Origin: a virus | Direction: 5' to 3' (one strand) | IMG/VR virus record: IMGVR_UViG_3300047494_000105 | Coordinates: 1 to 34,435 of that record | Length of the DNA stretch: 34,435 nt | In this document: positions 23,981 to 34,435 of the stretch, piece by piece | How the letters are laid out: each line of letters opens with the position of its first letter | Numbering within the stretch: the first letter of the stretch is position 1 | Notes under the pieces: model-generated | Told to the model about the DNA's origin: nothing | Databases searched by the model: none | The model's input: only the letters and a program-made list of their open reading frames with translations | Translations under genes and position numbers: made by a program

Positions 23981-24416
23981 CGCAATACCTCATAGATTCT
24001 CGCCGTTGACGCACAGAGGCCCATCCCCCTCATTGGGAGGGGCGGCCGGTCGCGGGAGCGAGGCGCGACCGGCTAGGCAGGCGGTTTGGCGGGGTGAGCC
24101 AGCAAGCGTCACATACAAAAACAGCGGTGCCATCGGGTGGTGTGCTGCTAGCCGTCCGTGGCTAAGGTCGGGGTCCGCATTGATCCCGAATCACGCTGCT
24201 TTCGCAGTCACGTTGCTTGCTACAGCAACGACTATGGGGCAGCCCTTCGAGGATCGCAAGCAAATTCCTAAGCCCTTTGCCGCTGGTAGCCGCTCATGAC
24301 CGCTGGTAGCCGCTCATGACCGCTGGTGTAGGCTCAGAGCCGCTGGTAGCCGCTCATGACCGCTCATAGCCGCTGGTGTAGGTCTCCAAAACACCCAAAA
24401 CCCTCAAAAAAACCTT
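23981..24416. other. Non-coding region between lysis cassette and IS element
   Basis: About 430 bp without a convincing gene on either strand. It holds a perfect 10-bp hairpin (GCCGGTCGCG 24045-24054 with CGCGACCGGC 24064-24073), a smaller one just before it (CCCCTC/GAGGGG), a 7-bp dyad (24211-24217 with 24224-24230), and ten 10-bp tandem units (24281-24380). It separates early replication genes from late genes, so it is the likely home of the late promoter and its control, but no clear -10/-35 pair was identified. Confidence 0.6.
24281..24380. repeat. Ten tandem 10-bp units
   Basis: Ten consecutive decamers, nine of them beginning CGCT: four main variants CGCTGGTAGC, CGCTCATGAC, CGCTGGTGTA and CGCTCATAGC, with one GGCTCAGAGC. 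Units alternate and form higher 20-bp repeats. The period is near one DNA helical turn, so equivalent faces align. The last unit ends 28 bp before the IS target duplication. Confidence 0.9.
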
Positions 24417-24441: not shown

Positions 24442-24567
24442 TTATTTGTTTTCATAAACTTCCGCCTTGGCCTTTTTCTTGCGTTGCCGGGGCGGTTTGA
24501 CCTTCGATTCAGGCCGATAACGAAGAACGACATCAACCATTTTGTCTAGCACTTTGGGAGTCTTCAT
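24442..24567 (-). CDS. Small basic IS-encoded protein overlapping the transposase stop
   Basis: This 41-residue frame starts MKTPKVLDKMVDVVLRY and becomes very basic (KPPRQRKKKAKAE). Its ATG overlaps the transposase TGA (ATGA), suggesting translational coupling, and it ends three bases inside the terminal repeat. It could be a DNA-binding accessory to transposition. I do not know an annotated homologue. Being short, it could be spurious, but the coupling and composition favour a real gene. Confidence 0.55.
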   Translation of the reverse strand: MKTPKVLDKMVDVVLRYRPESKVKPPRQRKKKAKAEVYENK

Positions 24568-25499
24568 TGAATCAACCTCGCATAGGTCAGGCGCTTGCCG
24601 TCCATCGCTTTGATGAACGAGTCGAGGCGGTCAAGCGTATGGACTTCGACGCTGCCTTCGTTCAGGCGGAAGGTGAATTCGTCAACGTAGCGGTGGAGAT
24701 GCTTCGCGCTGGCGTGATGGTAAACGCCGTGCATCCCGCGCTTCATCACTGCCCACACGCTCTCGATAGAATTCGTGCTTACCGGGCCTCGTGCATACTC
24801 GCCCGCCGTATGGTTCACCGTCTCGTGCTGAAAGAAGAGGCCGCCCATGCCCTCGTAGGCCGTCGCCTCGTCTGTCAGCAGCGTCGAACCGACCTCGACG
24901 TTATCCAAGATGGCGGTCTGAATCGTCGCCCGGTCTGTGTTGGCGACTGTCATGGCGATGGTGCGACCGCCGCGCTGCCTCATGCCGAGTACAGCAGTCT
25001 TGCCGACCGTGCCGCGTCCGGCCTTGAGCTTTTTGCGCTCGTGCTTGTTCCCCTCTTTGCCGCCGAAAAAAGCTTCGTCGATTTCGACCATGCCTTGCAA
25101 CTTCTCCAGTTCGCCGCCGCAAGCCTCGCGGAGACGGTGGAGCATGAACCATGCAGCCTTTTGGGTGACGCCAATCTCTTTGGCTATCTGCATGGAGGAG
25201 ATGCCTTTGCGGGCCGTCACAAGCAGGTACATCGCATAAATCCACTTGTGTAGCGGTATGTGCGACCGCTCGAAAATCGTGCCTGTACGGATGGTGAAAT
25301 CAAGCTGGCATTTGTTGCAGCGGTAGAAGCCCTCGCGCTTGCGAGTGGTGATGCGATCCTGACCGCCGCACGTTGGGCAGGTGGTGCCTTTAGGCCACAA
25401 GCGGCCTTCGAGGTACACCCGCGCAGTCGGTTCGTCCGGGAACATCTGGAAGAGTTGGAAGGTGCTGATTGTGCTCTTGCTCACTTTGCGGCCTTCCAT
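24564..25499 (-). CDS. IS1595-family transposase (ISXO2-like DDE domain)
   Basis: This is a 311-residue protein. An N-terminal zinc ribbon (Cys41, Cys44, Cys61, Cys64) is followed by a helix-turn-helix-like region (GISSMQIAKEIGVTQKAAWF, about 99-118) and the ISXO2-type catalytic domain: Asp141 in EIDEAFFGG, Asp210 in LLTDEATAY, and the third acidic/Asn position in STNSIESVW (Asn243/Glu246). It appears complete. It cuts and joins the element ends. The start ATG lies inside the preceding 41-residue frame; a GTG five codons on is an alternative. Confidence 0.96.
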   Translation of the reverse strand: MEGRKVSKSTISTFQLFQMFPDEPTARVYLEGRLWPKGTTCPTCGGQDRITTRKREGFYRCNKCQLDFTIRTGTIFERSHIPLHKWIYAMYLLVTARKGISSMQIAKEIGVTQKAAWFMLHRLREACGGELEKLQGMVEIDEAFFGGKEGNKHERKKLKAGRGTVGKTAVLGMRQRGGRTIAMTVANTDRATIQTAILDNVEVGSTLLTDEATAYEGMGGLFFQHETVNHTAGEYARGPVSTNSIESVWAVMKRGMHGVYHHASAKHLHRYVDEFTFRLNEGSVEVHTLDRLDSFIKAMDGKRLTYARLIQ

Positions 25500-26182: not shown

Positions 26183-26605
26183 CTACAAATTACTCCTCGC
26201 TGCCTCAATCGTCCTTTTGCGCAGGTTTTCATCATCCACCTGCCCAGGCACAATCGCGATCTTTCGCGCCAAATCTTGGGCTGCGGGGTCAATCCAGAAA
26301 TCGCGCCAGCTTATGAACTCCTCTGGATGATCCTTGCGATACTTTTCCATCTCCGCATCCCGCCTCCGATTCTCTGCGGATTCGCGCACAGCCTTGCGCT
26401 CAGCCACAGCCTGCTTCAACCGCGCCATCTCAGGAAACGCCGTCTCACCTTCACGCCGCGGATACCGCGCAATGTCGTCGAGTCCGCTGGCGATGTCCTC
26501 CAGTTCGAACCGCAGCAGATCTTCACCCAGCACTAAGTAATCTTCCGGTGCCAGCTTCGCCTGGCGTCTCACTCCCAGCTTCGCCAGCAGCCCCGTAATA
26601 ACCAC
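26183..26605 (-). CDS. Hypothetical replication-block protein (position of lambda P)
   Basis: I choose the GTG at 26605 (140 residues) because GGGAG lies eight bases upstream; the frame is open to an ATG at 26698 without a good ribosome site. Either way it overlaps the end of the initiator gene (stop 26523). The protein is helical and charged: LAPEDYLVLGEDLLRFELED, PEMARLKQAVAERKAVRESA and DHPEEFISWRDFWID. I recognise no motif. Its place directly behind an O-like gene suggests a helicase-loader or replication partner, by analogy only. Confidence 0.65.
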   Translation of the reverse strand: MVITGLLAKLGVRRQAKLAPEDYLVLGEDLLRFELEDIASGLDDIARYPRREGETAFPEMARLKQAVAERKAVRESAENRRRDAEMEKYRKDHPEEFISWRDFWIDPAAQDLARKIAIVPGQVDDENLRKRTIEAARSNL

Positions 26606-27611
26606 CAGCTTGTCTCCCACGGATGATGGCGACTGCCTGCTTAGCCGCATCGATGCTGGACTCTGTCTTTCCCTTAAAAGCCCCGTTTCCATTGCCATGT
26701 CTCGCCTCCGTCATCGTCTTTCCAAACTGATTCAGCGGCCCTTGCTGATACCGCAGCACATGCGGCAGCCACAGCCTCGGCCGCTCGCCGTGCGGCGTCC
26801 CCACACTCTTCGCGCGGTTGCTCAGGCACGCCTGGAACACCTGCAGCGTCAGCTCCGGAGCCGACCGCAGCAGCGTAGTCAGCGCCCGCGCCTCGCTGCC
26901 GTCCCACACGAACAGCACGCCCTTGAACTTCGCGTAGGTCATCACCGCCAGGCGGAACGGCGTATGCCGTGGATCGGCCTCGGGTTTGCCTTTGCCGTTG
27001 CTTTTGCTCTTGCCTTGATCAGGCGCTTTTGCTTTTGCCGTTGCTTTTGCTCTTCGCTCAGGCTGACTCGGGCTCTCGCCGTCAGCGGCGCTTGGCGGCT
27101 GCACGGTCTCGGCGGAATCGGCCAGAAGGTTCCCTGACGGTTCAATAGCGGTTCCTCTACTATGGGGTTGTAGGGGTTTCGTCTCTGAGACTGAAAACGA
27201 TGTCTCTGAGACTGACTTTTGAGTCTCTGAGACTGAAACCTCATCCTCGCAGTCGTGCTCATCCTGCTCACAGCCAGTCTCTGAGACTGACTTCTTCCGT
27301 TGGGCGGCCATAAAGGCGGCTCCGAACTCGGCGGCAAGGTCGCGGCCGAGCATCTCCAGGTTGATCTGGTAAGCGGTCTTGTGCCGCTCTCCCGTCACCT
27401 TCATCTTCTTCACCAGCGCAATCCTGCCCAGTACCTCAATCGACCTGTCCACCGTCCGCTTCTTCAGCTCCGTAGCCATCAGAATGTACGGATCGCCCGG
27501 GAACGAATACCCGTTCGGGTCCGACATATCCGCCAGCAGACAAAGCACACTCTTCGCCGGCGCATTGCCCAGCCTCGTGCGAAACGCCCTCGGTGTCAGC
27601 TCATTACTCAC
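26523..27611 (-). CDS. Replication initiator, lambda O-like, containing the presumed origin
   Basis: This is a 362-residue protein from GTG at 27609-27611, which overlaps the end of the methyltransferase gene by eight bases. Residues 1 to about 95 look like a winged helix-turn-helix (AKSVLCLLADMSDPNGYSFP, then MATELKKRTVDRSIEVLGRI). Residues 108-144 contain SVSET four times, encoded by the iteron-like repeats. A low-complexity Lys/Ala/Gly/Ser linker follows (about 190-225), then a conserved-looking C-terminal domain (FRLAVMTYAKFKGVLFVWDG, RPRLWLPHVLRYQQGPLNQF). A wHTH domain, internal iterons and a C-terminal partner domain match lambda O. The frame is open further upstream in an unrelated reading of the methyltransferase gene. 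Confidence 0.8.
   Translation of the reverse strand: MSNELTPRAFRTRLGNAPAKSVLCLLADMSDPNGYSFPGDPYILMATELKKRTVDRSIEVLGRIALVKKMKVTGERHKTAYQINLEMLGRDLAAEFGAAFMAAQRKKSVSETGCEQDEHDCEDEVSVSETQKSVSETSFSVSETKPLQPHSRGTAIEPSGNLLADSAETVQPPSAADGESPSQPERRAKATAKAKAPDQGKSKSNGKGKPEADPRHTPFRLAVMTYAKFKGVLFVWDGSEARALTTLLRSAPELTLQVFQACLSNRAKSVGTPHGERPRLWLPHVLRYQQGPLNQFGKTMTEARHGNGNGAFKGKTESSIDAAKQAVAIIRGRQAGGYYGAAGEAGSETPGEAGTGRLLSAG
27181..27290. other. Candidate replication origin: four dyad iterons
   Basis: GTCTCTGAGACTGA occurs four times without mismatch, at 27181-27194, 27202-27215, 27223-27236 and 27277-27290. Each contains the dyad GTCTC-T-GAGAC. The first three start exactly 21 bp apart (two helical turns). 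The fourth is 54 bp further, close to five turns. They lie inside the initiator gene, as lambda's four iterons lie inside O. About 130-190 bp on, in the gene's reading direction (26985-27055), is an A-rich purine stretch on the minus strand that could be an unwinding element. Origin function is inferred. Confidence 0.78.
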
Positions 27612-28077
27612 AGCGCAACACTCCCGGCCGGAAGATGACCACAGAACACGGAAACATAGCCGTATGCGCCGAGCCGCCAAACTTGATGCGGCCACGCACG
27701 AAGCGGATCTCGCCCCGCATCGCATAGTCGTGCCACCAGCGCCCCGAGGTCGACGACGGCACCAGGCAGACAACCGTTGCCCCCCCCTCGCGCGCGGACT
27801 CGTAAGCCTTCTTCATCCAGCGATCGATGACGCCGCGCGCATATGGCGGGTTCATCCAGACCACTTCGCCCGCCCAGCTCTGCGCCAGCCCATCCTGATC
27901 GCGCGTGAAGAACCGCGCACACTTCGCATTGCCAACACTCGCGCAGACATCCAGCGTGAAGCCGAACTCCGCATCCAGCGGCTCGAAGACGTGCGCCGGC
28001 GTCGACCACTCCACCGAATGCACCACGGCCGGAACATAGTCCTGCTCACTTTGGAGTGCTGTATCGAACAAATTCAC
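27604..28077 (-). CDS. Phage DNA N6-adenine methyltransferase (Dam-like, PF05869 type)
   Basis: This is a 157-residue protein from GTG at 28075-28077. It has the hallmark features of the small phage Dam family: EWSTPAHVFEPLDAEFGFTL (about 23-42), DVCASVGNAKCARFFT, and the catalytic NPPY in VVWMNPPYA (76-79), then VCLVPSSTSGRWW. It methylates adenine, probably to protect phage DNA from host restriction or to mark replication. Length is normal for the family. It lies directly upstream of the initiator gene and overlaps it. Confidence 0.9.
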   Translation of the reverse strand: MNLFDTALQSEQDYVPAVVHSVEWSTPAHVFEPLDAEFGFTLDVCASVGNAKCARFFTRDQDGLAQSWAGEVVWMNPPYARGVIDRWMKKAYESAREGGATVVCLVPSSTSGRWWHDYAMRGEIRFVRGRIKFGGSAHTAMFPCSVVIFRPGVLRCE

Positions 28078-28129
28078 GCAACAACCTCAAATCTCAACTC
28101 GGCTCACTACTCGCATAGGCTGTAAACGA

Positions 28130-28552
28130 TCACGCGGCTTCCACGACGCAGCCTTTGAGAATCTTGGCCGTCTCTCGCTTCACCGCGTGCTCTCGATTCT
28201 TCGGAAAGTTCCGACCGAGCCCATGGCACGCCGCACACAGAACCGCATCAGGACGGGGAATAGAACACGTCTTCGCTCTCGCCGAATCCAGCGACCACCA
28301 CATATGGCAATTGGTGACGGCGATCATCATCGGCGACGCCAGCCGGATCAGGTATTCACCGTTGGAGCCATATCCCCAGCGCAAGCGGACATGGTTGATC
28401 TTGTGAATGAGACACGCATTGTGCGAGGTTCCATAGATGTACGGTGGATGCTTTTTCGCGAGTGTTACGTCGCGCTCCTCCCGCCCCCAGCGCGGCGCAC
28501 GCATCTCTGGAAAAACTGCGACCACTTGCCTGCGCATATGCCTCACGAGCAC
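28130..28552 (-). CDS. Hypothetical Cys/His-containing protein
   Basis: This protein has up to 140 residues. The first start is GTG at 28552; MRRQVVAVFPEM from the ATG at 28537 is the alternative. Several Cys and His are spaced as in zinc-binding or HNH-type proteins: GTSHNACLIHK (about 41-51), VTNCHMWW, and AVLCAACHG. I do not see a full HNH signature. It overlaps the end of the adenine methyltransferase gene by 10 bases if the GTG is used. Confidence 0.6.
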   Translation of the reverse strand: MLVRHMRRQVVAVFPEMRAPRWGREERDVTLAKKHPPYIYGTSHNACLIHKINHVRLRWGYGSNGEYLIRLASPMMIAVTNCHMWWSLDSARAKTCSIPRPDAVLCAACHGLGRNFPKNREHAVKRETAKILKGCVVEAA

Positions 28553-29397
28553 ACCTCACGTTCCATCAACTCCATTTGCGGGCGAGCGTTCCAGGCTGCC
28601 GGGTTGAACCACAGAACCTCGGTGCGCTTCTTCGCGCCATCGGCCAGCGCCGCCCGTTCCAGCCGGTTCCAGTCGCCGTAGAGCTCGTCATACAGCGCCG
28701 AAGGATACCCCGACAGCATCACCATCCCCTTCAACCCGCGCAGCACCCCAGCCAGCTCCCGATGGTCCGCATCATCCATCTCATGCCGATAGCCGCCAGT
28801 CACGCCCTTTCCGGCGCGTGCGCGTGAATCAAACGTGTACGGCGGGTCGACGTAGTACAGCGTCCGCTCATCGTCGTGTTGCGGGATGACTAGCACCGCG
28901 GGCTTGCATTCGACAGTCACTCCGCGCAACCGCTCACACCAGTGCGTCACCTGCGCCGGCATCCGCATCCATTCCATGCTCGGATACGCCCCATTACCAT
29001 GCGCCAGCGACCGAAAGCCCGTCTTCGTGTCCGACGTCACCGAATCACTACCAAAGCCCATAAACGAAAGCGCCAGCGTGAGGCGAGCTCGCTCGACAGG
29101 ACTGCCTGTCGGCTCGAACGCGGCCTCAAGCTCAGCCCTCGCAAATGGAGTCAGCGCCAGCGCCTGCTTGAGTTCGAGCGCTGCGACTGGATCCCGCAAC
29201 ACCCTGAACACATTGACCACGACGCCATCGAGGTCGTTGTAGATCTCGGCATAGGCACGTTCTTTACGCAAGAGCACGCTGCCGCCCCCGCCGAACGGCT
29301 CGACATACACGCGATGCTGCGGCATGTTCGCGATCACCCACGGCGCCAGCTTCCACTTCCCCCCGTGATACCGCAAAATCGGTCTCGTCACACTCAT
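28543..29397 (-). CDS. D12-class adenine-specific DNA methyltransferase
   Basis: This 284-residue protein contains the D12/Dam-type motifs in order: RYHGGKWKLAPW (about 9-20), motif I VEPFGGGGSVLL (32-43), and catalytic DPPY (184-187) in LYYVDPPYTFD. The spacing is typical of the alpha-class Dam enzymes (T4 Dam, DpnM). It transfers a methyl group from S-adenosylmethionine to N6 of adenine. The ATG overlaps the preceding stop (ATGA). No restriction partner is seen, so an anti-restriction role is likely. Confidence 0.93.
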   Translation of the reverse strand: MSVTRPILRYHGGKWKLAPWVIANMPQHRVYVEPFGGGGSVLLRKERAYAEIYNDLDGVVVNVFRVLRDPVAALELKQALALTPFARAELEAAFEPTGSPVERARLTLALSFMGFGSDSVTSDTKTGFRSLAHGNGAYPSMEWMRMPAQVTHWCERLRGVTVECKPAVLVIPQHDDERTLYYVDPPYTFDSRARAGKGVTGGYRHEMDDADHRELAGVLRGLKGMVMLSGYPSALYDELYGDWNRLERAALADGAKKRTEVLWFNPAAWNARPQMELMEREVCS

Positions 29398-29561
29398 TTG
29401 CCCACCACCAGCAACTGTCGCGACCGCTCCGTCACCCTCTCGATAAGGTCGCGGTCATCCCTGTGGGCATAGGTGCGGAGCCATGACTCGCCACGCGCGA
29501 TCTCCATCGAAAGAATCGCCTGCAGATGGCCGCACTCTTCACCGCTCAAGTCAAACGTCAT
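29394..29561 (-). CDS. Small hypothetical protein between two methyltransferase genes
   Basis: This 55-residue helical protein begins MTFDLSGEECGHLQAILSME and ends RSRQLLVVGK. The start is set by an ATGA overlap with the stop of the cytosine methyltransferase, and its own stop overlaps the start of the adenine methyltransferase the same way, so the three are translated as a coupled set. No family recognised. Confidence 0.6.
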   Translation of the reverse strand: MTFDLSGEECGHLQAILSMEIARGESWLRTYAHRDDRDLIERVTERSRQLLVVGK

Positions 29562-31408
29562 GCCGCCACCCCCGCCGTGCGCGTAGCACCACCCTGCGCT
29601 AACGTCGGCAGCGCCAGGTGCATGGCCATCTGCGGCGGCACGGCGTTGCCTACCTGCACCTGCTGCTCTTTGGCCGTGCCGGTCCACTTGTAGTCATCCG
29701 GGAAGCTCTGCGCCCGCGCGCATTCGGCCAGCCGCAGCATCCGGAAGAAGATCATCATGCGGCTCACTCGCGCCCCGGCCGGCAGCCAGCTATACGATCC
29801 AACGGGCGCGTCGACCTCATCCAGCCGCATCGTCACCAGCGCGAACCGCTCACGCGTCGTCAGCGTCGGCACCGGCTCACTCACGCCGCTGGCCGTCGAC
29901 GTGCCGTAATACTCAGCCAGAAACGGCGACACCAGCGCCTCACCCTTCGAGCCCGTCACCGTCTGCATCGTCCGATCCACCGAGCTCACCCGATGCTCGA
30001 AGCTCTCACCCGCCCGCACACCGTGGTTGCACGTCACCAGTAGCGGCTGCGCAAGGCCGACATTCGCCTTCGTCACCAGCGTCGAGAGCGGCAGATCAGC
30101 CGACCGCACACCCGCACCACTCGCGTTATCGATGGCGATCAGCGCAGGCGTCACCAGATTCCCGCAACCGCGCGAGGTCGCAGTCGGCGCTGGGTCGTCG
30201 ATGCTGTGCGTTCGCCACGCCTGGTCGCCGCGCTCACCGAACGCGGGCGAGAGAAACGGCGACGCCACCGAGATCTGCTGCGTTCCCGTAATCGTCCGCA
30301 GCGGCAACTCCGGAGAGTCCACATCGAACCGGTCAAACACCCGATGCGGCAGCACAAGCGGAGACACCACAGCCGCATGCCCAGCCCCAGCCGTAATCGT
30401 CTGCACCGGCTCTCCTACGCCATGCACCGTCGATTTACCATGCAGATCGGCCAGATACGGCAGCGTAGGCAGCCCCACATAGTTCTCCAGCAGCCGAAAT
30501 TCCACATCGCTCACCGGCGGCCGCCACGCCGCCAGCTCAGCCGCGCTCACCTCGGCCAGGTCGACGAACAGCGGCACCAGCCCGCGCTGCACCATCGCCG
30601 TCACATCCATCTCGATCCCCCAGAACTTCCGCGCGCCGGCGCGAATCCGCTCCATCGTGTTCGGCACCAGCGGCTTCTTCCGCTGCGTAAAGATGTCCTT
30701 GCCCAGGTCCGCCCAGTCAATCACCTCACGCGCCGCCACCCACGGCTTGCGGCTATCGGCAAACAGCGGCTGCTTCGCCCGCTCCGCCGGCCCGATGTGC
30801 GTCGGCTCCGGCCAGCGGATCGTCCGGTTGCCCTTCACCGCGATCAGGAAGAAACGCTGCCGCGTCGTCGGCGTGCCGTAGTCGGCGCAGTTCAGGATGC
30901 GCCACTCATACTTGTAGCCACGCACCTTCAACCCCGCCAGCCAGTGATTGAACAGCGTGCCCTTCTTGCTCTTCAGCGGCGTGTTGTCGACGCCCAGCGG
31001 CCCCCAGTCCACGAACTCCCGCACGTTCTCGATCATCAACGTCTCGACGTTCAGCTTGTCGAGGAAGTCCAGGATCAGGTTCGCCGAGCTGCGCGACTGG
31101 TCATTGCTCGGCTTGCCGCCCCGCGCCCTGCTGTGCCCGGTGCATTCGGGCGAAGCCCACAGCAGCTTCACGCGCCGGTCCGTTCGGCTGGTGATGAGCT
31201 TGCACGGGTCGCCGATCTCCGCCAGGCTCTTGCAGTGGTGCGCCGCCGCGGGGTGGTTGGCGGTGTGCGTGTCGATGGCCACCTGCCAGTGGTTCACGGC
31301 GATCATCTCGTAGTCCGCCGAAGTCTTCCCCAGCAGCTCCCACGCCATCATCATCCCGGTAGACGTTCCCCCGCCCCCGCAAAACAGATCGATCAGTACG
31401 TCCTTCAC
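29558..31408 (-). CDS. C5-cytosine DNA methyltransferase
   Basis: This is a 616-residue protein from GTG at 31406-31408. Motif I is DLFCGGGGTSTG (7-18). Motif IV is ASPECTGHS with catalytic Cys89, where the usual Pro-Cys is Pro-Glu-Cys, a variant I associate with phage enzymes. Motif VI is ENVREF (127-132) and motif VIII is TRQRFFLIAV (about 183-192). The long region after 200 holds repeated hydrophobic/Thr stretches (PVQTITAGAGHAAVV, LRTITGTQQISVA, PTLTTRERFALV), and GNAVPPQMA near the end is motif X-like. It is much longer than typical Dcm, with the extra length in the target-recognition region. Confidence 0.92.
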   Translation of the reverse strand: MKDVLIDLFCGGGGTSTGMMMAWELLGKTSADYEMIAVNHWQVAIDTHTANHPAAAHHCKSLAEIGDPCKLITSRTDRRVKLLWASPECTGHSRARGGKPSNDQSRSSANLILDFLDKLNVETLMIENVREFVDWGPLGVDNTPLKSKKGTLFNHWLAGLKVRGYKYEWRILNCADYGTPTTRQRFFLIAVKGNRTIRWPEPTHIGPAERAKQPLFADSRKPWVAAREVIDWADLGKDIFTQRKKPLVPNTMERIRAGARKFWGIEMDVTAMVQRGLVPLFVDLAEVSAAELAAWRPPVSDVEFRLLENYVGLPTLPYLADLHGKSTVHGVGEPVQTITAGAGHAAVVSPLVLPHRVFDRFDVDSPELPLRTITGTQQISVASPFLSPAFGERGDQAWRTHSIDDPAPTATSRGCGNLVTPALIAIDNASGAGVRSADLPLSTLVTKANVGLAQPLLVTCNHGVRAGESFEHRVSSVDRTMQTVTGSKGEALVSPFLAEYYGTSTASGVSEPVPTLTTRERFALVTMRLDEVDAPVGSYSWLPAGARVSRMMIFFRMLRLAECARAQSFPDDYKWTGTAKEQQVQVGNAVPPQMAMHLALPTLAQGGATRTAGVAA

Positions 31409-32907: not shown

Positions 32908-33212
32908 GCGAACATCCTTCCCCGGCCCGCAACCCGCTGCGGCCAACGCGTCCCCGTCTTGAGCTGGACACCGCGCCAGCACAGCCAGCGCAGATGAAAC
33001 CAGCGATCATCCCGCACGGCCTGGCGGCGGTGCCGAGCGTGGCCCTCGGGGTGAAACACCCCACGCCGCCAGTACGACGTGAACGGAGCCTCTACCCTGC
33101 ACTCTTCGCAGAGTCCCCGTTCCCGGTCGCAGGCCTTCCGAGCCTGCACACGCCAAGCATCCAGCGTGCGGCAGATCAGTTGACCGCCATGCAGATAAAC
33201 CTCACCCCGCAA
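32904..33212 (-). CDS. Degenerate HNH endonuclease-like protein, TTG start
   Basis: This 102-residue protein begins at TTG (33210-33212) preceded by GGAGG at ideal spacing, giving MRGEVYLHGGQL. DRERGLCEECRVEAPFTSYW has the CxxC pair usual before phage HNH cores. EGHARHRRQAV stands where a metal-binding His pair would be, and LRWLCWRGVQLK stands where CWxCHxxK is expected, with the second Cys and the final His missing. It is therefore either a divergent or an inactive HNH protein. It overlaps the end of the repeat-protein gene by 11 bases. Confidence 0.6.
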   Translation of the reverse strand: MRGEVYLHGGQLICRTLDAWRVQARKACDRERGLCEECRVEAPFTSYWRRGVFHPEGHARHRRQAVRDDRWFHLRWLCWRGVQLKTGTRWPQRVAGRGRMFA

Positions 33213-34068
33213 CGTAGACCTCCACAGCCGGCACCGGCGCAGCCGCCATCAACTCCAGCAGCTTGTCACCGCACAGCGCGGCGAATGTTTGATCGCTCTC
33301 GATCACCCGGTCGCTGAGGGCGCGGAGGGCGCGGAGGTCGCTGAGGGCGCTGAGGGCGCTGAGGGCGCGGTGGTCGCGGAGGTCGCTGAGGGCGCTGAGG
33401 GCGCTGAGGTCGCTGAGGGCGCGGAGGGCGCGGAGGTCGCTGAGGGCGCGGAGGGCGCGGAGGGCGCGGAGGTCGCGGAGGGCGCGGAGGGCGCTGAGGG
33501 CGCGGAGGGCGCTGAGGGCGCCGAGGGCGCTGAGGGCGCTGAGGGCGCTGAGGGCGCTGAGGGCGCTGAGGGCGCTATACACTTCGTCGTAGACCGCATC
33601 CCATTCGGAATCCGCTGGCGCGTCGCCGCTATCGCGGCGACGGTACAAATCACCACACCGCTGCGCTAGGGCTTTCACATTTTCCGAAAGCTCGCTCGCG
33701 ACGATGCCTTCCTTCTCATCGAAGAGCAGCCACAGAATGAACTTGCCCGAAACAACCGACAGATCAGCTCCGACCGGGATGCACTCGAAGAACTCTTGCG
33801 GCCACGCCATTGCACGGTCCCGCGCCATCATCTCGAAGATTCCGTCTTCCAGGTGCGCCAGCGCGCGCGGCACACCAACCTCGACCTCATACGCACCATG
33901 ATCCGAAGAGTGCATCGAGCACCCCACCGCGCAGCCCTTGAACTGCCCCGTGCCGTCCATCTGCCAGTAGCCGTAACCTTGCACGATCTGGTTAGCCGCC
34001 CGGTGCGCCTTCACCCGGTTCAGATACTCCTGCTTGATCTCTTCCTTGCCATGAAATGCAATCAACAT
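33202..34068 (-). CDS. Protein with 29-unit Leu-based tripeptide repeat
   Basis: This is a 288-residue protein from ATG at 34068 with GAGG upstream; the frame runs further but without support. Residues 1 to about 160 form a globular part (MLIAFHGKEEIKQEYLNRV, YGYWQMDGTGQFKGCAVGC, WPQEFFECIPVGADLS, FILWLLFDEKEG). A tripeptide array follows for about 89 residues: mainly Ser-Ala-Leu and Arg-Ala-Leu with Arg/Ser-Asp-Leu variants. A short end contains ALCGDKLLELM. A Leu every third residue suits a helix or a narrow solenoid. The globular part resembles conserved phage hypothetical proteins; function unknown. Confidence 0.7.
   Translation of the reverse strand: MLIAFHGKEEIKQEYLNRVKAHRAANQIVQGYGYWQMDGTGQFKGCAVGCSMHSSDHGAYEVEVGVPRALAHLEDGIFEMMARDRAMAWPQEFFECIPVGADLSVVSGKFILWLLFDEKEGIVASELSENVKALAQRCGDLYRRRDSGDAPADSEWDAVYDEVYSALSALSALSALSALSALGALSALRALSALRALRDLRALRALRALSDLRALRALSDLSALSALSDLRDHRALSALSALSDLRALRALSDRVIESDQTFAALCGDKLLELMAAAPVPAVEVYVAG
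33310..33576 (-). repeat. 9-bp tandem repeat coding the Leu-x-x array
   Basis: About 29 units of 9 bp, mostly variants of GCGCTGAGG and GCGCGGAGG (with GTCGCTGAG-type units). All units keep the reading frame. Because 9 is a multiple of three and no stop is created, all six frames over this stretch stay mostly open, which makes spurious ORFs. Variation between Ser/Arg and Ala/Asp units comes from single-base changes. Confidence 0.93.
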
Positions 34069-34130
34069 AACTACCTCGCTCTCCCTGTTTGCCGACCGCC
34101 CTGGCCGGAAGCCCTTGTCACCACCAGCCC

Positions 34131-34435
34131 CTACCGCTCCGGGAACTGGTGCCACTCCACGCCATCCAGCAGATGCCCGGCGGCCTTTCCGACCACGCGC
34201 CGAAAGGCAACGTCTTGATACAGCTCGCTATTCGGTCGGGCCTTCATGATGAAATGGGGCCATCTGACATCTGCGGGATCTGGCACGCCTTCCGCAATGC
34301 AGGTGTATTGGCCCCATTGCTTGAAGAAGAACGGCACCCCGGCGGCGACGCACTGATCCCGCAGCGACCGCACCCATGCTGGGTTCAACGGACTCACACC
34401 AGACCCGCTCTCCCCGCCGCAGATCACCCAGTCGA
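34131..34435 (-). CDS. Gp37/Gp68-type protein (DUF5131), C-terminal part
   Basis: This frame runs off the right edge, so only the last ~101 residues are seen. They match the end of the phage Gp37/Gp68 (DUF5131) family: [40 protein letters not shown] (aromatic Phe-Phe-Lys-Gln-Trp is characteristic) and [17 protein letters not shown] at the end. Family members look radical-SAM-like in fold; their role in phages is not established. Bases 34069-34130, downstream, hold nothing recognised. Confidence 0.88.

Follow-up and report, generated by a model that had tools for sequence, protein, structure and literature searches.

In phage lambda and the Stx phages, the replication origin lies within gene O, where dimers of the O protein bind inverted-repeat iterons with an opening element adjacent (PMC7466680), and in lambda the adjacent segment is opened (PMC7466680, PMC5043065). 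How initiator binding opens the DNA in the O-like class is still an open question (PMC5043065). In other origins, initiators bind short repeats of the opening element in single-stranded form (PMC10797057). Here we analyzed a stretch of viral DNA of 34,435 nucleotides (the window), and propose that the segment 27287-27128, for which the minus strand is the coding strand, is very probably the phage replication origin, of lambda type and located inside its own initiator gene. The principle of an origin within the initiator gene is already known, and the window presents a variant form of it.

The iteron array and its initiator gene

The features of the locus, all on the minus strand, are as follows:

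27604-28077, minus: Dam-type DNA adenine methyltransferase gene, upstream, overlapping the start of the initiator gene by a few bases
26523-27611, minus: O-like replication initiator gene (PHROG profiles), GTG start at 27611, stop at 26525-26523
27282-27611, minus: DNA-binding domain at the N terminus; winged helix by prediction, with good confidence up to about residue 107
27277-27287, minus: iteron 1 (distal), coding strand GTCTCAGAGAC, 5-1-5 dyad, encodes VSET; -111 from the C-rich box
27223-27233, minus: iteron 2, GTCTCAGAGAC; -57 from the C-rich box, position kept in 15/15 loci
27202-27212, minus: iteron 3, GTCTCAGAGAC; -36 from the C-rich box, position kept in 15/15 loci
27181-27191, minus: iteron 4, GTCTCAGAGAC; -15 from the C-rich box, position kept in 15/15 loci
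27164-27176, minus: C-rich box, coding strand CCCCTACAACCCC
27155-27163, minus: spacer, ATAGTAGAG; a WWWWWGG element in relatives
27128-27154, minus: three direct repeats in 11-bp steps, GAACCGCTATT GAACCGTCAGG GAACC; candidate DNA unwinding or single-strand capture element

Four exact copies of GTCTCTGAGACTGA (27181-27194, 27202-27215, 27223-27236 and 27277-27290) follow one another at steps of 21, 21 and 54 bp, and a search of the whole 34,435-base record found no others. The exact-match search thus agrees with a preliminary description of this DNA, which had reported four mismatch-free repeats, at 21-bp steps with one 54 bp further on, each with an internal 5-1-5 dyad. The number of copies given there stands, but the conserved unit is only the 11-bp core, GTCTC-T-GAGAC, a perfect 5-1-5 dyad; the trailing TGA of GTCTCTGAGACTGA is the codon before the dyad on the coding strand and is not kept in relatives. 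The interpretation offered at the time, a phage origin in an O-like gene, is supported by the gene family, the anatomy and the conservation of the DNA. Its extent, 27181-27290, does contain the repeats but is too short: the feature reaches at least 27128, and the C-rich box and the three 11-bp repeats had been missed.

All four window copies encode SVSET. Given the peptides and the codon usage of the phage, the probability of identical S-V-S-E codons in 4/4 copies is p = 3.4e-6 and that of four perfect dyads p = 0.0024; the uncommon Ser codon TCA occupies 8/8 Ser positions of the array. Around the identical dyad cores, the copies vary in their spacers and at the third position of the Thr codon, and very recent duplication therefore fails as an explanation of their identity.

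The initiator gene comprises an N-terminal winged helix, an iteron-coding middle and a variable C-terminal part. Its product matches the replication initiation families phrog_1032 (4.6e-10), phrog_8540 (4.4e-8) and phrog_391 (5e-5), and weakly Pfam HTH_36. An AlphaFold2 model of the N-terminal domain (mean pLDDT 84) has the order H-H-H-H-E-E-H of a winged helix; among solved structures, MarR-type repressors come closest, with no PDB match at E <= 0.001, and replication protein O of phage Min27 is one of the viral structure matches. Alignment of the ST64B replication protein with the family (hhalign 98.7%, E 4e-16) indicates that the N-terminal domains are homologous. As judged by profile match and N-terminal homology, the window initiator is of the O-like type phrog_1032/8540/391 (ST64B Sb42), and the earlier assignment to an O-like initiator with an N-terminal winged helix agrees with the profiles, the predicted fold and the ST64B homology. 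The likeness to lambda that had also been suggested applies to the layout but not to the ancestry of the DNA-binding domain: hhalign detected no homology of this domain to lambda O (probability 0.1), and in the profile search phrog_277 was matched by lambda O but not by the window protein.

Three DNA methyltransferase genes, of Dam, phrog_56 and phrog_116 type, lie upstream of the initiator gene (27604-31408). The next gene, 26183-26698, has no PHROG or Pfam match, and no lambda P or DnaC-type helicase loader was recognized among the neighbors tested with PHROG and Pfam, a comparison that a diverged loader would escape. The turning points of the cumulative GC skew lie near 21 kb and at the ends of the contig, with none at 27.2 kb. 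Elsewhere, a noncoding array at 24280-24374 (20-bp unit CCGCTGGTAGCCGCTCATGA, 4.8 copies) is followed by an A+T-rich stretch and is a possible second control region; the only match to it outside the window (L172) is due to chance. The IS1595-family (ISXO2-like) transposase gene beside this array (24564-25499) may mark an insertion in the phage. At 33312-33576, about 29 copies of the 9-bp unit CGCTGAGGG encode a low-complexity stretch of S-A-L, R-A-L and S-D-L within the ORF 33202-34155.

Selection on DNA rather than peptide

Relatives were collected by a scan for two nearby dyads, an N-terminal alignment scan and a C-box scan, together with one bacterial MAG contig (L066). The 14 distinct relatives (L006, L007, L008, L010, L013, L066, L076-L082 and L102, with the truncated-ORF locus L085 left out) are 32-58% identical to the window protein and, with the window, give 15 loci. 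L076-L082 were fetched by protein sequence alone and are thus unselected for any DNA feature. A single-sequence protein search of viral contigs returned no relatives; they were found through the DNA pattern and the N-terminal alignment, and a repeat alignment scan added none. The many two-copy matches to the dyad pattern in cellular genomes (Streptomyces, Olsenella and others) were unrelated, as were matches to GACNNNNCCCCCACACCCCC of small-contig and terminator type. Tandem SVSET peptides at L034 and L049 proved to be protein-level repeats unrelated to initiators, with varying codons.

Relative to the C-rich box, 15/15 loci have dyads at positions -15, -36 and -57, with one or two more copies at -78 to -111. 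Among the 62 iteron copies of these loci the outer GTC...GAC is invariant; at the fourth dyad pair, 42 copies have T-A, 13 have G-C and 4 have C-G, and the 3 unpaired cases are all in L080. Between loci, the sequence shifts on both arms together (GTCTCAGAGAC, GTCGCAGCGAC, GTCCCAGGGAC) or at the center (GTCTGTGAGAC, GTCTCACAGAC), which may read CAG, GTG, CAC or TAG, and the copies within one locus usually change in concert. The window, for example, has four copies of GTCTCAGAGAC, and its closest relatives, L078 and L081, which share the 54-bp gap, have four of GTCTGTGAGAC. The encoded peptides change accordingly between VSET, VAAT, VPGT, VCET and VSQT, and in 8/15 loci (L008, L010, L013, L076, L077, L079, L080 and L102) a shift of frame at the outermost copy gives CLRD, RLRD, CLTD, CRSD, CLSD or RRSD. 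In L007 (1533-1630) the array is mixed, with GTCTGTGAGAC and its reverse complement GTCTCACAGAC as separate copies that encode VCET or VSQT depending on orientation.

What is conserved among the relatives is the DNA, not the SVSET peptide. At shared 4- and 6-fold residues the codon is kept in 1087/1484 cases (73%) in the segment and in 1921/5144 (37%) elsewhere in the gene, and codon identity is higher in the segment than in the rest of the gene in 105/105 pairs of loci, which are not independent of one another. The preliminary description had argued that DNA rather than protein is under selection; this is borne out by relatives in which SVSET is lost but compensatory changes preserve the dyad, in some cases out of frame. 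The case that it had named against itself, relatives with SVSET in other codons and without dyads, is the opposite of what the relatives show.

Read along the coding strand, the C-rich box, the spacer and the three 11-bp repeats come after the last dyad. The box reads CCCCCACACCCCC in 13/14 relatives and CCCCCAGACCCCC in one, and its codons are the same in the relatives fetched by protein alone. The 11-mers take the form GAACC-N6 in the window, L006, L066, L078, L079 and L081, GACCC-N6 in L010, L013, L077 and L102, and GAACT, TACCC/GACCC or GTCCC in L007, L076, L080 and L082. As steps of 11 bp do not make a whole number of codons, each reading frame holds one copy. The 11-bp periodicity is stronger than in synonymous shuffles in 14/15 loci (p <= 0.0033), L008 being the exception, and the GAACC triple occurs only once in the window, at 27128-27154. 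Spacer and 11-mers are only moderately A+T-rich in the window, with a GC content of 49% vs 61% upstream. Together, these observations show that the dyads, the C-rich box and the 11-mers are under selection as DNA.

A hairpin lies 3' of the 11-mers in about half of the relatives (CCCCCGCAAGCGGGGG in L006 and L076, for example); short-loop G+C-rich hairpins of this kind lie inside the initiator gene in L006, L008, L076, L077, L080, L082 and L124. We do not claim this hairpin as an origin part, and it is absent from the window. At L085 (4640-4810), a winged-helix ORF is split from the next ORF, and this second ORF holds ACCTTCC-N6-GGAAGGT dyads and three GACTACACAAT-like repeats in 11-bp steps; the layout is that of the window with another motif.

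The concerted recoding of dyads under a reading-frame constraint is not what a specialist would expect, and it makes the family a natural experiment in which a recognition sequence has been recoded in all copies at once with the frame kept open. The family thereby separates constraint on DNA from constraint on protein, and its pairs of dyad and winged helix offer material for recognition rules; a code linking residues of the wing or helix to the fourth dyad pair could not be resolved by eye in the 15-sequence alignment.

Proposed mechanism and alternatives

We propose that a dimer of the O-like protein would bind each 11-bp dyad through its N-terminal winged helices, with each subunit on one half-site. 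A complex resembling the O-some would then form on the three dyads at exact two-turn (21-bp) steps and the fourth further out, its register fixed relative to the C-rich box, which may form the boundary between the bound array and the opened DNA. Strain from this complex would open the adjoining spacer and the three 11-bp GAACC repeats, and one separated strand of the 11-mers would be captured by the initiator or a partner, with the replicative helicase loaded there. The AACC repeats might be bound as single strand, by analogy with the repeats in opening elements of other origins that are so bound. Initiator binding and origin activity are both inferred here. Three observations speak against this reading: the spacer and 11-mers are only moderately A+T-rich, unlike the opening element of lambda; the GC skew has no turn at 27.2 kb; and no helicase loader was recognized among the neighbors tested.

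The dyads could instead be operators through which the initiator, or a similarly folded repressor, controls transcription of its own gene, with replication starting elsewhere. Such a role would suit a predicted fold whose closest solved structures are MarR-type repressors, and the separate 20-bp tandem array with A+T-rich DNA at 24280-24374 could be another control region or origin. We nevertheless regard operators as improbable: the array is placed mid-gene, not at a promoter, and in constant register to the C-rich box and the 11-bp repeats, the gene family is one of replication initiators, and the search for arrays like that at 24.28 kb found none, the one match outside the window lying inside an unrelated ORF without a repeat array.

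Slightly less probable still is that the dyads act as hairpins of RNA or single-stranded DNA (stem GTCN/NGAC, loop of 3 nt) that might control translation or serve in strand initiation. A stem and a dimer site would account equally well for the compensatory changes at the fourth pair and for the excess complementarity of the first flanking pair (40/62 copies vs 27.3 in shuffles); the stem is, however, 4-5 bp long, the L080 copies break the fourth pair and yet keep recognizable half-sites, and the exact 21-bp steps and fixed register are in keeping with proteins arrayed on duplex DNA. That the array is a protein-level SVSET repeat, identical in DNA only through recent tandem duplication, has a precedent of sorts in the tandem SVSET peptides of L034 and L049, but their codons vary, the spacers in the window have diverged around identical cores, and relatives change the peptide and keep the dyad, with some copies out of frame; we consider this explanation refuted. 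An origin within the initiator gene thus remains our preferred reading.

We also analyzed O-like genes beyond the family. By N-terminal profile, they occur in 48/398 genomes of the phylum of G003 (a beta-proteobacterial MAG) and in 9/396 of the phylum of G001 (an Acidobacteriota MAG), many with intragenic dyad repeats of quite different sequence. In a first set of 33 such genes, which suggested the motif, 12 contain a chain of three or more AACC in steps of 10-13 bp (vs 1.9 expected). A held-out set of 36 further O-like genes, with iterons unrelated to those of the window, was then fetched: 15 have the chain, against a null mean of 1.28 and maximum of 4 in 300 synonymous shuffles, although the effective number is smaller than 36, some of these genes being close kin. 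AACC ranks first of 256 four-mers in this set, and the reverse strand of the same 36 genes has no AACC chain, which confines the chain to the coding strand. In the examples inspected it begins directly after the last dyad. The C-box recurs beside unrelated iterons in L090 and L122, and L130, from the Acidobacteriota-phylum set, combines CCCCCAGACCCCC and AACC repeats with unrelated iterons. This gives a weak hint that the host of the window phage is perhaps an acidobacterium; the window terminase has only moderate matches in Acidobacteriota.

These data lead us to suggest, tentatively and with slightly less than even confidence, that O-like phage origins combine two separable modules: dyad iterons, highly variable, by which self is defined, and directly 3' of them (in the window family after the C-rich box) a conserved AACC repeat that is strand-specific and has a period of 10-13 bp. 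The latter might be a general code for opening or single-strand capture, a phage counterpart of the DnaA-trio, in phages of Pseudomonadota and Acidobacteriota. This strand-specific module is the novel part of the analysis and one that a specialist would not expect; no paper was found that combines AACC, iterons and phage, a weak sign of novelty given the many subscription papers outside the search. If confirmed, the module would allow origins to be located by sequence in many uncharacterized prophages, and would provide a testable strand-opening code for the O-like class.

Comparison with known origins

The locus resembles oriLambda (lambda; Stx phages 933W and P27) in the location of the proposed origin inside the initiator gene (PMC7466680, PMC5043065). 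It also shares with oriLambda four dyad iterons about two helical turns apart (steps of 20, 24 and 23 bp in lambda), a candidate opening element that comes immediately 3' of the iterons in the coding strand, and an initiator with an N-terminal DNA-binding domain. It differs in that its iteron is an 11-bp 5-1-5 dyad, whereas that of lambda is an imperfect dyad of 18-19 bp and other sequence, in the G+C-rich box between iterons and 11-mers, in a candidate opening element of GAACC-N6 in place of a strongly A-rich tract, and in an initiator N terminus without detectable homology to lambda O.

The O-like gene of Salmonella phage ST64B and Shigella phage SfV (Sb42) has a homologous N-terminal domain (about 35% identity to the window protein over the N-terminal quarter) and, in ST64B, four intragenic dyad-symmetric repeats (21 nt) at 21-45-bp steps followed by three AGAACCAGTCA repeats. 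Its iteron, TGGTGCAG...TTCACTAGG, is unlike that of the window, and in L014, which is of the ST64B/SfV type, no CCCCCACACCCCC box was seen and the repeats are in 12- and 17-bp steps. Like the oriC 13-mers, the DnaA-trio, the RK2 13-mers and the (G/A)ATCA of V. cholerae ori2, the candidate opening element is a short motif at fixed steps beside initiator boxes (PMC10797057). It is set apart from these by the motif AACC, a period of 10-13 bp, its place in a probable phage origin and its restriction to the coding strand, and by analogy with them it may serve in strand capture.
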